This document shows, piece after piece, positions 46,105 to 52,132 of a stretch of 52,837 nt of DNA. The position numbers were made by a program, and so were the translations under genes. The DNA lies in the NCBI GenBank assembly GCA_026417555.1, contig JAOADA010000009.1, forward strand, positions 276-53,112, read 5' to 3'. Positions within the stretch are counted from its first letter, which is position 1. Each line of letters starts with the position of its first letter. The stretch comes from Brevinematales bacterium. GTDB lineage: Bacteria; Spirochaetota; Brevinematia; Brevinematales; Thermospiraceae. Below the pieces are notes generated by a model. The model was not told the origin of the DNA, searched no databases, and was given only the letters and a program-made list of their open reading frames with translations.

Positions 46105-46133
46105 TTGACAAAGATGAAGTTCCTCTTTATACT
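46105..46133 (+). promoter_or_regulatory. Promoter of the lacI-GH31-GH13 operon
   Basis: A perfect TTGACA at 46105-46110 and TATACT at 46128-46133, 17-bp spacer. The LacI operator begins at the next base, so repressor binding would cover the transcription start. Confidence 0.8.
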
Positions 46134-46153
46134 TTGGTTAAACGTTTAACCAA
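46134..46153 (+). promoter_or_regulatory. LacI-family operator O1
   Basis: Perfect 20-bp palindrome TTGGTTAAAC/GTTTAACCAA with the central CG typical of LacI/GalR operators, immediately downstream of the -10 element and just before the regulator gene. It implies autoregulation. Confidence 0.9.
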
Positions 46154-46161
46154 GGAGAGAT

Positions 46162-47214
46162 ATGAAGCGGGTTACCATCAAAGATATTGCTCGAGAGGCT
46201 GGGACGTCGTATGTTACCGTTTCTCACTACCTGAATAAACGGGGTGAAAAATTCTCTGAGGAAACAGCAGCGCGTATTGAGGCGGCTATCAGAAAGCTTG
46301 GTTATATCCCCAATCGGACGGCGAGGAAGCTTGCAAGAAACCGTTCCTATACTCTTGGAGTGGTGCTTCCTCCAGCGATGGCTTCACTATCACCAGCAAG
46401 ACTTCTGAGAGACAATCCTTTCTATACGGAGTTTTTTGCTGCGGTTCAGGCACGGGCCTGGGAGTATGAAACAGATGTGGTGGTAACGGGGGATGTGGGG
46501 GACGAGGCGCTCTTTACCTGGGTGATGTCATATCAGTTAGATGGGGTGATCCTTTTTGCTTCTGAGGTGGCACAGCGCCTCAAAGAAAATGGTAAGCAAC
46601 GAGGGCAGCATTTGAACACCATCTTTGTTGGATTGGAGGGACCGTCTCCTTTTTTAGATGCTTGGGTAACGATCGATGAGGTATCAGGTATTGTTCAGGC
46701 GGTTTCTTATCTTGTGTCTTCTGGGCACAAAAGAATTGCTTTTGCCACGGGGGACTATCACACCTCTCCGGTAAACGCAGCCCGTTTTTCTGGTTATCAA
46801 CAGGCGCTTGCTTCGGCGAATCTTTCTCTTGATGAGAGGTTTGTTCTTGTGGATGAGGTTTCTTTTGAGGGGGGACGGCGGATTGGAGAAAGGCTTCTTG
46901 TGTTGATGAAAAACGCGCGGGTTTCGGCGGTGGTGTGTGTGGCTGATATCCTTGCAGCCGGGATTTACAAGACTCTCCTTCGGGCCGGGAAACGAATTCC
47001 TCGTGATCTTTCCATCACAGGGTTTGACGATCTGGGGATAGCTTCGCTTCTTGAACCAGAGTTAACCACTGTGCGACAAGATATTGTTCGCCGGGCGGCG
47101 TTGTGTGTGGATTGTATTGAGCATGCCTATCAAGGGAAACCTCTTTCCTCAGTGTGTCTCCCTGTGGAGCTTGTTCTTCGACGCTCGACAGCCCCGTATC
47201 GCTATACTCGTTAG
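46162..47214 (+). CDS. LacI/GalR-family transcriptional regulator
   Basis: A 350-residue regulator. VTIKDIAREAGTSYVTVSHYLN is the helix-turn-helix, and RKLGYIPNRTARKLARNRS is the hinge that inserts into the minor groove. The periplasmic-binding-protein-like core has FFAAVQARAWEYETDVVV, DGVILFA, SGHKRIAF and FDDLGIASLLEPELTTVRQD. CAAGGAGAG precedes the ATG. It lies between the two identical operators and ahead of two alpha-glucan hydrolases, so it probably senses a maltodextrin-type sugar and represses its own operon. The inducer is inferred. Confidence 0.95.
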   Translation: MKRVTIKDIAREAGTSYVTVSHYLNKRGEKFSEETAARIEAAIRKLGYIPNRTARKLARNRSYTLGVVLPPAMASLSPARLLRDNPFYTEFFAAVQARAWEYETDVVVTGDVGDEALFTWVMSYQLDGVILFASEVAQRLKENGKQRGQHLNTIFVGLEGPSPFLDAWVTIDEVSGIVQAVSYLVSSGHKRIAFATGDYHTSPVNAARFSGYQQALASANLSLDERFVLVDEVSFEGGRRIGERLLVLMKNARVSAVVCVADILAAGIYKTLLRAGKRIPRDLSITGFDDLGIASLLEPELTTVRQDIVRRAALCVDCIEHAYQGKPLSSVCLPVELVLRRSTAPYRYTR

Positions 47215-47233
47215 GACAGAAGGGAGGAAAAAT

Positions 47234-49813
47234 ATGGAAAAAGCATGGAGTTTGGTTAAACGTTTAACCAAAACATGGTTGGGTGAGCACATTTTTCAAG
47301 GAAATCGAAAGATGATCTTTTTGATTTTCTTGGGTGGAGTGTTGATCTTTTCTTGTGAAAAGGCATTGCGACAGCCCCCTCTGGGAATGGTTCCGGTACC
47401 AGAGTTTTGGGAGCAGATTCCTCGTCAAACGCCTGGCGAGGTAGTCTCTTTGGTTGAGAATGAGCAGGGGTGGGTTTTGGTATGTAAGCGAAAGACTCTT
47501 GTGGTTTGCCCCCTTGAGCAAGGCTGGAGGGTGGGGTGGTTTTCCTCTTCTGTGTCTAATTTTTCTCGTGTTTCCTATGCGGTTGTTGAGGAGAAAGGAA
47601 CAACCAATGGGGTAAGTGTTTCCCAGACACGAGAGAGTGTGATTTTCACAAGAGGAGAGGAAGTCCTTGTCGTGAAGAAAAAAGATGGTCGCTTGTTTTG
47701 GTCCCGAGCGGGAAAAACCTTGTTGTCTCAAAAGGAGGTTTTCCGTTTTGAAGGGGAGCGCTTCACATGGGGTTTTGATATGCCGGACTCGATGGCGGTG
47801 TGTGGATTGGCAGAAAAAGCAGAAGGGCTCAATCTCAGGGGAAAAAGTTTTACCTTTTATAACAGGGATACTTACAAGTATCAACGGGGACATGATCCTC
47901 TGTATCTGGCTATTCCCTTTGCCATTCTCTGGGACAAAGATGTTGCATGGGGGGTGTTTCTGGACAATCCAGCGCAGTCTTTCTGGGATATAGGAGCGAG
48001 AAAAAACAATAGTTTTTCTCTAGGGGCGTTGGAAGGGGAGGCTCTCTTGTATCTTTTTTCCTCTTCTCACGTGTCTGGGGTTATAGAGGCCTACACTCAT
48101 CTCACAGGAAAACCACCTCTTCCCCCTTTCTGGGCGCTGGGGTATCAGCAGTCACGGTTTAGTTATTTTCCTCAGGCGAGGGTGATGGATATTGCCAAGA
48201 ACTTTCGAGAAAGAAATCTTCCGGCTGATGTTCTTTATTTAGATATTGATTTTATGGAGGCGAAAAAAAGCTTCACGTATGATACCAATCGGTTTCCTGA
48301 TCCTTCTGGTCTTCTTCATCATCTCCATGAGATGGATTTTCGTGTAGTGACTATCGTCAATCCTGGGATAGCTGTTCGAAAGGGGTACGCCCCCTATGAG
48401 AGTGGAATCAGAGAGGATGTGTTTGTGAAACTTTCCAATGGGCGGTATGCCCAGGGAACCGTCTGGCCAGGGATATGTGTGTTTCCTGACTATTCTCTTC
48501 CCAGAACGCGGGTATGGTGGGGGAGGCTGTACACTCATTTACTGGGGATGGGGTTTGATGGTTTCTGGAACGATATGAATGAACCGTCAGTCTTTAATGG
48601 AAGGGATGGGACGCTGGAACGGACTGCGCTTCACTATGATTTTGGAAGGTTTTCTTTTCATTCTCGGGTGCATAATGCATATGGGTTGACGATGGCACAG
48701 GCTACCTATGAAGGGCTCACCACTCTTGTGCCTGGGAAACGCCATTTTGTTTTAAGTCGGGCGGGGTATGCGGGGATCCAACGCTATGGTTTTGTTTGGA
48801 CAGGGGACAATACCGCTTCCTGGGATCATCTTCGACTGAATCTCTCCATGGTGTTGAACTTGGGGCTTTCTGGGGTCCCGTTTGCAGGGGCAGATATTGG
48901 GGGATATACAGGTACCCCTTCTGAAGAGCTTTTTATTCGGTGGATCCAGCTGGGGGTATTTCTTCCCTTTGTTCGTAACCACACTGAGCAGGGCACGGCT
49001 CCTCAAGAGCCCTGGGCCTTTGGCAAGAGGGCAGAAGATATTGCCAGACGCTACCTTTTTGTTCGGTATAGGCTTCTCCCACTCTGGTATACCCTGGCGT
49101 ATGAAGCCCATGAGAGGGGGCTTCCCCTGGTACGCCCGTTGTTTTGGGAGGGAGGGCCGGTAAGTGAAGAAGGGTTCTTGGTAGGAAGAGATGTCGTAGT
49201 GTATCCTATCCTGGAGAGTGGGAAAACCAACATCCAAGGAGATCTTCCTCTGGGTTCTTTTGTCGAATGGAAGAGTCATACCGTGTTTTCTCGTCACTTT
49301 GAAACATCTGTAACCCTTGAGGATATTCCTCTTTTTATTCGGCGTGGAAGTGTCCTTCCTCTTGCCAATATTTCTGAGAGGCTTCTCAAGCAAGGGGCAC
49401 CCCTTTCTACCATTCTTCAAGTGCCAGATGAGCATCTTCGTTCTACGAGGGATGTTCGTGATATTACGCTTTGGATTTTTGCTGGAGAAAAGGGCGAAGG
49501 TTCTCTGTATTGGGATGATGGGGAAACAACGGCTTACCAACAAGGGGGAGGGCTTTTTGCTCACTATCGCTGGGAGGAGCATGCTACCGGGGCTACCCTG
49601 AGAATTACTGTCAAAGGAAAACCGCGGGGTTTCTCCCCTCTTCCTATCCGATGGCTTGTCGTAGAGGGGCTTCCTGAGGTGGATTGGGTGAAACGGGGGG
49701 ATACATCTCTTCCCTTTGAGAGGATTGGTTCACGAGTAGTGGTGAGTCTCTCTCAGGAGAATATGTGGAAAGAGAGTCTTCTCTCTTTATCCTATAAAGG
49801 AGGAAAACCATGA
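47234..49813 (+). CDS. GH31 alpha-glucosidase-like lipoprotein
   Basis: A glycoside hydrolase family 31 enzyme that removes alpha-linked glucose or xylose from glucan ends. GFWNDMNEPS contains the nucleophile (Asp447) and WTGDN the acid/base (Asp525). PADVLYLDIDFM, GADIGGYTG and RNHTEQG are also typical. A lipoprotein signal, KMIFLIFLGGVLIFSC, suggests anchoring outside the inner membrane. ATG 47234 follows a strong GGGAGG and gives 859 residues but a long n-region, part of which is encoded by the second operator. ATG 47312 behind AAGGAAA gives 833 residues and a normal signal peptide. Confidence 0.9.
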   Translation: MEKAWSLVKRLTKTWLGEHIFQGNRKMIFLIFLGGVLIFSCEKALRQPPLGMVPVPEFWEQIPRQTPGEVVSLVENEQGWVLVCKRKTLVVCPLEQGWRVGWFSSSVSNFSRVSYAVVEEKGTTNGVSVSQTRESVIFTRGEEVLVVKKKDGRLFWSRAGKTLLSQKEVFRFEGERFTWGFDMPDSMAVCGLAEKAEGLNLRGKSFTFYNRDTYKYQRGHDPLYLAIPFAILWDKDVAWGVFLDNPAQSFWDIGARKNNSFSLGALEGEALLYLFSSSHVSGVIEAYTHLTGKPPLPPFWALGYQQSRFSYFPQARVMDIAKNFRERNLPADVLYLDIDFMEAKKSFTYDTNRFPDPSGLLHHLHEMDFRVVTIVNPGIAVRKGYAPYESGIREDVFVKLSNGRYAQGTVWPGICVFPDYSLPRTRVWWGRLYTHLLGMGFDGFWNDMNEPSVFNGRDGTLERTALHYDFGRFSFHSRVHNAYGLTMAQATYEGLTTLVPGKRHFVLSRAGYAGIQRYGFVWTGDNTASWDHLRLNLSMVLNLGLSGVPFAGADIGGYTGTPSEELFIRWIQLGVFLPFVRNHTEQGTAPQEPWAFGKRAEDIARRYLFVRYRLLPLWYTLAYEAHERGLPLVRPLFWEGGPVSEEGFLVGRDVVVYPILESGKTNIQGDLPLGSFVEWKSHTVFSRHFETSVTLEDIPLFIRRGSVLPLANISERLLKQGAPLSTILQVPDEHLRSTRDVRDITLWIFAGEKGEGSLYWDDGETTAYQQGGGLFAHYRWEEHATGATLRITVKGKPRGFSPLPIRWLVVEGLPEVDWVKRGDTSLPFERIGSRVVVSLSQENMWKESLLSLSYKGGKP
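47252..47271 (+). promoter_or_regulatory. LacI-family operator O2, identical copy
   Basis: The same perfect 20-bp palindrome as at 46134-46153, placed 1118 bp downstream at the start of the GH31 gene. If translation begins at 47234 it lies within codons 7-13 (VKRLTK); if at 47312 it is intergenic. No promoter is obvious next to it. Confidence 0.88.
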
Positions 49814-51870
49814 AAAGGTTTCTGTGGATCTTTGTGGTCTTTGGTCTTGTGGGGTGTTTTTCTCGGCCTACCCCACAGGCAGGTATTGAAATCGAGAGTG
49901 ATCTGAACACCTCGATTGACATTTCTCGGGTGTATTTTCATTCTCGGGAGGCTTTTTACAAGAGTCCGTTTGGAGCGGTTCCAGAGGGAACGCCAGTACG
50001 TTTTCGTATCCAAACGAAAAAGGATGATGTACGAGAAGTCCAGTTTCTCCTCTACCGCCAGGAGAAGAGTGGAACAGGAGGCAAGAAGATGATCAAAAGT
50101 ATCACAAATCTTCCCATGCGTGTGGTGATGCGTACCAATGGCCTTGATATCTGGGAGATCACCTACACCCCTGAAAAACCGATGGTGTATGGGTATGGAT
50201 TTCGGCTTGTAAAAAATGAGCGCGATGCGATTGTCTATGCCAATAACCGTCGGGTAGTGGAGGTGCCGTATAATTCTGTGTTGGGAACGGGGGGGATTGG
50301 TCGCATTCAGGGGGATAGTTACCCTATCCCGTATACTTTGACGGTATATCGACGAGATTTTTCCATGCCCTCGTGGACATCCAATATGGTGATCTATTAT
50401 ATTTTTCCTGACCGTTTTCGGAACGGCAACAAGAAAAACGACCCGGTGGTTGGCAAGCGGCTTTTCTACAATCGCAAACCGATTGAATTTCATACGAACT
50501 GGTGGGATCCGTATCCGTATGTGCCAGGTCCTGCTGACAAAAACACTACCGACGACAGTGAGTATTGCAATGATTTTTATGGAGGTGATCTTGAAGGTAT
50601 CATCGAGAAACTTGACTACTTGGCATCCCTTGGAGTGACGGTGATTTATATCAACCCTATCTTTGAGGCACCGTCTAACCATAAGTATGATACGGCAGAT
50701 TATATGAAGATTGATCCAGCCTTTGGGGATCTTGAGACGTTTCGTCGTTTGGTGGCAGAAGCGAAGAAACGAGGAATTCGTATTATCCTGGATACTTCTC
50801 TCAATCATTGTGGATCTGATTCAGTGTATATGGATCGCTATGGCAAATACCCCTCTCTTGGGGCTTTTGAAAACGAGACCATTCGCAAAGACTCTCCCTA
50901 CTATGAGTGGTTCTCCTTTAGACCAAACTTCAAAAAGGCAGATGAGGCGTATGATCAGTGGGCTAATCCCACCTTGGCTACTCTGAGAGAAGTGGAGAGT
51001 TATAAAGAATTTGCCTATCGTGGAACCAACTCGGTGACGAAATTTTGGCTTCGTCAAGGGGCGTCTGGTTGGCGGATGGATGTTACCCCGTGGAAGTCCG
51101 ATGGTTTCTGGCGGGAATGGCGCCAGGCTGTCAAGGAAACCGATCCTGAGGCCTTTACGATCGCTGAGGTGTGGTTTGATGCCTCGTTTTACTTTCTGGG
51201 GGATATGTATGATTCAACAATGAATTATCTCTTTCGTTCGGCCATGATTCAGATGGGATTGGGGACAAACCTTTCTCTTCCTCTGGAAACCCTGGAGATG
51301 ATGCGAGAAAACTATCCCCCTCAAGTGTTTTCTCGTCTCATGAACCTGATCTCGAGTCATGATCTTCCTCGGATGTTGTATGAGCTTGGATACAAACGGT
51401 ATGGTCAGGAGGGGTATGAGACGTTTTTGCGTCGTTTCAAGATGGTGGTGGCCTTTCAGTTTGCCTTTCCTGGAGCGCCAACTATTTATTATGGTGATGA
51501 GGTTGGGATGACGGGGGGTGGGGATCCCTATAACCGTGGCCCGTATCCCTGGAAAGACACCGGTGCCCCATACGGGGATGAACGCCTTCTTCCCTTCTTT
51601 CAAACCCTGGGGAAACTGAGACACGCCCTGCCAGAGCTTTCTCAGGGGAGTCTTGCCTATCTCCATGTTGCGGACCATACCCTTGTCTTTGAACGAAGAT
51701 TGGGGGAGCGAGTTTTCTACTTTGTGATGAATAATGGCTCGGAAACAGCAACCATTTCTTTGCCCGTTTTGAATGGGAGTTTCACTGATCCCTTGACGGG
51801 GGAGAATCTCTCCCTTTCTGGGCAGATCGTGCTTGAACCGAAAGGTTTTCGCTATCTGGTGAGAAGGTAG
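49810..51870 (+). CDS. GH13 alpha-amylase-family lipoprotein
   Basis: A 686-residue enzyme anchored as a lipoprotein (MKRFLWIFVVFGLVGC). An N-terminal beta domain of about 180 residues resembles the N/CBM34 domain of neopullulanases and cyclomaltodextrinases. The GH13 barrel then has DTSLNHC (region I), GWRMDVTPW with nucleophile Asp424, IAEVWF with acid/base Glu453, and SSHDLPRML with Asp518. Region IV has SSHD where NHD is usual. It overlaps the GH31 gene by ATGA. I infer extracytoplasmic breakdown of alpha-glucans. A maltogenic, neopullulanase or transferase activity cannot be separated by eye. Confidence 0.92.
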   Translation: MKRFLWIFVVFGLVGCFSRPTPQAGIEIESDLNTSIDISRVYFHSREAFYKSPFGAVPEGTPVRFRIQTKKDDVREVQFLLYRQEKSGTGGKKMIKSITNLPMRVVMRTNGLDIWEITYTPEKPMVYGYGFRLVKNERDAIVYANNRRVVEVPYNSVLGTGGIGRIQGDSYPIPYTLTVYRRDFSMPSWTSNMVIYYIFPDRFRNGNKKNDPVVGKRLFYNRKPIEFHTNWWDPYPYVPGPADKNTTDDSEYCNDFYGGDLEGIIEKLDYLASLGVTVIYINPIFEAPSNHKYDTADYMKIDPAFGDLETFRRLVAEAKKRGIRIILDTSLNHCGSDSVYMDRYGKYPSLGAFENETIRKDSPYYEWFSFRPNFKKADEAYDQWANPTLATLREVESYKEFAYRGTNSVTKFWLRQGASGWRMDVTPWKSDGFWREWRQAVKETDPEAFTIAEVWFDASFYFLGDMYDSTMNYLFRSAMIQMGLGTNLSLPLETLEMMRENYPPQVFSRLMNLISSHDLPRMLYELGYKRYGQEGYETFLRRFKMVVAFQFAFPGAPTIYYGDEVGMTGGGDPYNRGPYPWKDTGAPYGDERLLPFFQTLGKLRHALPELSQGSLAYLHVADHTLVFERRLGERVFYFVMNNGSETATISLPVLNGSFTDPLTGENLSLSGQIVLEPKGFRYLVRR

Positions 51871-51880
51871 CCTCTTTTGC

Positions 51881-51915
51881 CTCTCCACCGCCTTTTTGGC
51901 GGTGGAGAGTTTTTT
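51881..51915 (+). terminator. Terminator of the alpha-glucan operon
   Basis: A perfect 12-bp stem, CTCTCCACCGCC with GGCGGTGGAGAG, around a TTTTT loop and followed by six T residues, 10 bp after the GH13 stop. Confidence 0.95.
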
Positions 51916-51931
51916 GAGATGATGGTTTGAA

Positions 51932-52132
51932 ATGGAGGATGAAGAAAGGCTCTCACAAACAAGCTTTGAGAGAGGGCTTGACAAAAAAAAGGGGAGAAGT
52001 ATAATATATCTGGGCAGAAAAAATGAGTACAGCATACTTTTCATTGAAGAGACACAAGAGCCCATACATGTGTTAGAAAAGAGAAAAGAATTTGTTTTAA
52101 ATACCCTCAAAGAAAAAGGAGTGAAATTATGA
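51932..52132 (+). CDS. Hypothetical small protein
   Basis: A 66-residue charged protein I do not recognise. Its second half (IIYLGRKNEYSILFIEE, then HVLEKRKEFVLNTLKEKGVKL) reads like a strand pair followed by a helix, and its stop overlaps the next gene as ATGA, which supports coding. The start is doubtful: the ATG at 51932 has no clear ribosome-binding site, and a good promoter at 51978-52005 lies inside the frame. A shorter product starting at a non-standard codon, or a 5'-truncated remnant, is possible. Confidence 0.4.
   Translation: MEDEERLSQTSFERGLDKKKGRSIIYLGRKNEYSILFIEETQEPIHVLEKRKEFVLNTLKEKGVKL
51978..52005 (+). promoter_or_regulatory. Promoter for the right-end cassette
   Basis: A perfect TTGACA at 51978-51983 and TATAAT at 52000-52005 with a 16-bp spacer. 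It lies between the preceding terminator and the 52129 gene but within the 51932 frame, so one of the two calls may be wrong. Confidence 0.6.

Follow-up and report, generated by a model that had tools for sequence, protein, structure and literature searches.

The operators of LacI-family regulators are as a rule palindromes of even length centred on CG. The local regulators of the family are mostly autoregulated, and sites in coding sequence made up less than 1% of a large survey (PMC4052901). One known intragenic case is that of E. coli lac, where the promoter operator O1 is accompanied by an auxiliary O2 inside the first enzyme gene, lacZ. There, lacI is expressed from its own promoter and its tetrameric product forms loops. 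E. coli PurR, of the same family, has a palindromic operator inside purB at which elongation is blocked (He and Zalkin 1992, cited in PMC10310618 and PMC4052901). That gene is a lone distant target of the regulon, and its operator is further into the coding sequence. In B. subtilis, the global catabolite regulator CcpA is likewise described as a roadblock downstream of the promoter at sigL (Choi and Saier 2005, cited in PMC10310618). GlyR3 of C. thermocellum is an autoregulated LacI-family regulator of glycoside hydrolases (celC-glyR3-licA, manB) that has a strong site at a promoter and another within the coding region of a hydrolase gene, manB; the manB site is weak, is not identical to the promoter site and belongs to another operon (PMC5483248). 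Elongation roadblocks have been documented for LacI, PurR, GalR and CcpA (PMC4132739, PMC10310618).

We analyzed a window of 52,837 nucleotides from the draft genome (2.03 Mb in 33 contigs; G000) of an uncultured Brevinematales spirochaete and compared it with two sister genomes, G001 (one 2.5-Mb contig) and G002. As in lac, one candidate operator (O1) lies at a promoter and a second (O2) inside the first enzyme gene. In contrast to lac, the operon here begins with the lacI-type gene, whose protein is without the tetramer tail. The resemblance to purB is limited by the position of O2 at codons 7–13, where it directly follows the gene of its regulator within one operon and is paired with an identical promoter site. 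This identity and the shared operon also set O2 apart from the manB site of GlyR3, while the CcpA case differs from what appears here to be an autoregulated local operon. Intragenic LacI-family operators are of a rare but already known kind (lacZ, purB). The present arrangement is unusually clean in that, in three species, the gene after the regulator has an identical perfect site within its first codons. O2 is conserved in frame and base for base across all three, and their phylum is not mentioned in the survey of the family (PMC4052901).

The genes lacI, GH31 and GH13 most likely form a three-gene operon for alpha-glucan use that would be autorepressed through its LacI-family product. All of its stranded elements are on the forward strand of the window. 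A strong sigma-70-type promoter, TTGACA-17-TATACT, at 46105–46133 has 11 of 12 matches in a promoter scan, and its position relative to O1 (46134–46153) is the same in G001 and G002, where it is conserved. The LacI-family repressor gene at 46162–47214 encodes a protein of 350 amino acids (P0001) with the Pfam LacI and Peripla_BP_3 domains. It is followed by a GGGAGG ribosome-binding site (47222–47227) and, from the ATG at 47234, by a GH31 alpha-glucosidase-type lipoprotein gene (47234–49813), which was assigned from Pfam, PDB relatives and a start region conserved in the three genomes. The last gene (49810–51870) encodes a GH13 lipoprotein of the neopullulanase or maltogenic-amylase type according to Pfam and PDB relatives; its start overlaps the GH31 stop (ATGA) and its place in the gene order is kept in the sister genomes. 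The operon ends at an intrinsic terminator (51881–51919) with a 12-bp stem followed by a T run. Just past this terminator, a promoter with 12 of 12 consensus positions, TTGACA-16-TATAAT, was observed at 51978–52007 of the window.

The 20-mer TTGGTTAAACGTTTAACCAA is exact both at 46134–46153 and at 47252–47271, with a spacing of 1118 bp between O1 and O2. Each copy joins the half-sites TTGGTTAAAC and GTTTAACCAA into an even palindrome with the central CG typical of LacI-family operators. O1 starts one base past the -10 hexamer TATACT and overlaps the expected transcription start, and a promoter scan around O2 found no promoter-like site. The preliminary description of this DNA had reported an identical pair with this spacing, the first site directly after the -10 and the second without a visible promoter, and these particulars were all borne out; its view that the pair brackets a LacI-type gene is likewise supported by the sequence. 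No perfect 20-bp palindrome other than O1 and O2 occurs in the window; about 0.05 would be expected from length alone. The one at O2 reaches 22 bp (47251–47272). Elsewhere in the window there were no further matches to TTGGTTAAACGTTTAACCAA at up to 3 mismatches, and 100 dinucleotide shuffles gave zero matches. A genome-wide search, which had been proposed as a means to define the regulon, returned the exact 20-mer at O1 and O2 only in the 2.03 Mb. The 14-mer core GTTAAACGTTTAAC occurs in four copies in G000, with no more at 1 or 2 mismatches, while a control pattern gave 0, 0 and 2 matches. Since the exact 20-mer is found at two places and the core in few copies, the motif is specific within G000.

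When translated from the ATG at 47234, O2 spans codons 7–12 and two bases of codon 13 of the GH31 gene. This position agrees with the earlier proposal that the operator also encodes residues 7–13, given that start and the GGGAGG upstream of it. The frame of O2 is identical in the three genomes and is read as LVKRLTK, the predicted N-termini being MEKAWS-LVKRLTK, MEKRH-LVKRLTK and MRRKVA-LVKRLTK. In the GH31 frame of G002, there is neither an ATG nor a TTG from O2 to the lipobox. As this leaves no alternative start ahead of the hydrophobic core of the signal peptide, translation in G002 must begin upstream of O2, making O2 coding sequence in this genome. The alternative start of GH31 in G000, the ATG at 47312, is less likely; because the start in G002 must precede O2, the ATG at 47312 is not the ancestral one. 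The suggestion that the second operator lies within the coding start of the enzyme gene is thus strengthened by the comparison, and the site falls inside a translated gene, in frame, in three species, as in other intragenic LacI-family operators.

The operon lacI-GH31-GH13 is kept in both G001 and G002, and the LacI proteins of these two species are 59% and 74% identical to that of the window. In both genomes O1 is right behind the -10 and O2 is at the GH31 start, and the O1–O2 distances in the three genomes are 1118, 1130 and 1121 bp. The genes upstream of lacI differ in G001, where O1 and O2 are still present. When the GH31 genes of the three species were aligned by codon, only 33% of the columns with identical amino acids had identical codons. 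The 18-nt run TTTGGTTAAACGTTTAAC, identical in all three, is tied for the longest such run in the gene. It falls in the signal peptide, the fastest-changing part of GH31, and the other 18-nt run belongs to the catalytic domain. Because this identical nucleotide run stands amid the most diverged region of GH31, the comparison favors O2 being conserved as a protein-binding DNA site and not merely as a conserved peptide.

P0001 is a strong candidate for the protein that binds the O1/O2 palindrome. It has the helix-turn-helix and the sensor domain of the LacI family, with an N-terminal LacI HTH (PF00356, 1.7e-16) and a periplasmic-binding-like sensor (PF13377, 3e-27), and its closest solved structures are RbsR, CcpA, PurR and LacI. 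The gene is adjacent to sugar genes and O1 is at the promoter of lacI-GH31-GH13 in all three genomes, as would be expected of autoregulation. Each genome has a second LacI-family gene. This paralogue was considered as the binder and rejected, since its recognition helix differs from that of P0001 and no palindrome is present upstream of it in G001 or G002.

We propose that the operon is autoregulated by P0001 binding to both sites, with a block to initiation at O1 and a roadblock to elongation at O2. We hold this account to be the probable one, while allowing considerable room for doubt. The LacI-family product would recognize the palindrome TTGGTTAAAC/GTTTAACCAA. When bound to O1, it would cover the transcription start and repress the whole operon, lacI included; when bound to O2, it would stop those polymerases that escaped O1 after they had passed lacI and before they reached the hydrolase genes. 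With no inducer, a little repressor would still be produced while the hydrolases would be held down twice, as the effects of the two sites would multiply on the hydrolases and not on lacI. An inducer, perhaps a malto-oligosaccharide, would release both O1 and O2.

Our confidence in O2 as a roadblock is moderate. This role is plausible because the layout of the locus agrees with the behavior of LacI, PurR and CcpA. As a roadblock, E. coli LacI can reduce transcription beyond its site by more than 80%. With strong operators, reductions of up to 25-fold were seen for promoters of weak to moderate strength, and roadblocking is most effective when polymerase flux is low (PMC4132739). The promoter repressed at O1 would be in just such a low-flux state, where roadblocks are strongest. 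The uncoupling of regulator from hydrolase expression would be a natural consequence of such a roadblock, and the locus provides a natural case for testing how a second operator can uncouple a repressor gene from the enzymes behind it. Alternatively, O2 could add repression without blocking elongation.

The preliminary description had put forward DNA looping alongside a roadblock. Here, repressors bound at O1 and O2 would bridge the 1.1-kb lacI gene, and O2 would mainly raise the occupancy of O1 as lac O2 does from within lacZ. Looping is known for LacI, GalR and similar regulators, and an identical pair of sites about 1.1 kb apart is found in three species. However, the alignment of P0001 with E. 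coli LacI covers LacI residues 1–330 of 360 with 6 P0001 residues beyond, and the C-terminal tetramerisation helix of LacI, which a tetrameric repressor of a looping system would have, is absent from P0001 in this alignment. The O1–O2 spacing also drifts among the three genomes with no helical phase kept, although helical phase matters little over ~1.1 kb. Moreover, O2 is placed exactly where a roadblock would part lacI from the hydrolases. Looping thus drew little support from either the protein or the spacing, and we consider it unlikely.

The third core copy in G000 (C27:114074–114087) precedes an alpha-amylase lipoprotein gene and ends ~9 bp upstream of its -35. A core copy is likewise found just ahead of the -35 of the alpha-amylase lipoprotein gene in G002, and the orthologue in G001 has one ~290 bp upstream. 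The position of the amylase site might let the LacI-type protein either activate or repress. G001 has an additional core copy, not associated with the repeats described below, ahead of a melibiase/GH31-like glycosidase gene. Since core copies are found at amylase and glycosidase genes, the predicted regulon of the palindrome is one for alpha-glucan use, which provides a defined motif for such a regulon in Brevinematales. The fourth core copy in G000 (C11:502770; L009 8771–8790) is intergenic, with a HEAT-repeat gene on one side and a ferredoxin gene on the other, and sits well upstream of the apparent promoter of the ferredoxin gene. It has one mismatch to the 20-mer, and it has a 25-bp stretch in common with O2 except for one C/T difference. 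No counterpart of this copy was found near the serA orthologues of G001 or G002.

Many unrelated copies of the palindrome had been named beforehand as an outcome that would refute a regulatory pair. Such copies are not seen in G000 but do occur in the sister genomes, with 27 copies of the core GTTAAACGTTTAAC in G001 and 38 in G002; ten further genomes from this order have none. For the fetched copies outside the lacI locus, 21 of 25 in G001 and 33 of 36 in G002 are within 150 bp of a degenerate repeat with the consensus ACTGcaAcAaGGnAAgAGC in G001 and GCTGAaACAtGGtAATAGC in G002, and the gap between core and repeat is often 16 or 19 bp. The repeat is short, degenerate and intergenic, occurs in both orientations and is often arrayed (e.g. 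L163 3300–8650 and L139 3900–4900). Its strict 18-mer form was found 434 times in G001 and 151 times in G002, and in neither G000 nor four other genomes of the order. Because most core copies are in these intergenic repeats, the palindrome is not exclusively regulatory in the sister species. The conservation at lacI, of one site next to the promoter and of the other in frame, stands regardless of the repeat copies.

Exact cores outnumber copies with one mismatch by 27 to 12 in G001 and by 38 to 16 in G002, and this excess within an otherwise degenerate repeat suggests selection for a bindable site. As a tentative possibility, the operator of the sugar repressor may have been multiplied in repeats in the sister species, such that the sugar-responsive protein would bind dozens of arrays across the chromosome as decoys or as a repeat organizer. 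An undescribed repeat family with the same motif is brought to light here. An Rfam search of the repeat arrays gave no match, and viral contigs that were scanned for the palindrome together with the repeat motif, or for the repressor, gave no hits. Reading the core as an integron attC site (GTTRRRY/RYYYAAC) was rejected, as the arrays of intergenic repeats that contain the copies show, by eye, no cassette structure.

These repeats raise the alternative that the palindrome is part of a genus-wide element targeted by another protein and that its position at lacI is incidental. While the abundance of the core in both sisters, mostly beside the 18-bp repeat at preferred distances, would fit this explanation, the repeat is absent from G000, where two of the four core copies are the lacI sites and another is at the amylase promoter. 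In addition, all three species keep one site after the -10 and the other in frame within the coding sequence, and we regard an incidental location as improbable. It is very improbable that O2 instead serves a separate promoter near the lacI end, from which GH31-GH13 would be transcribed and at which O2 would block initiation. A TATACT hexamer does exist at ~47203–47208, ~45 bp upstream of O2, but it has no properly spaced -35, the scan found no promoter there, and neither G001 nor G002 keeps the hexamer. It is also very improbable that O2 functions as an RNA hairpin near the GH31 start codon to tune translation or mRNA stability, for although the region folds into a 9-bp hairpin (z = -3.2), such folding is expected of any DNA palindrome. 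Moreover, at O1 the palindrome overlaps the expected start of transcription, and at the amylase gene it is upstream of the -35 and hence outside the transcript of that promoter.

At the end of lacI, G001 has an extra partial copy, CGTTAAACGTTTC, ~60 bp upstream of O2 (L121 4060–4073).
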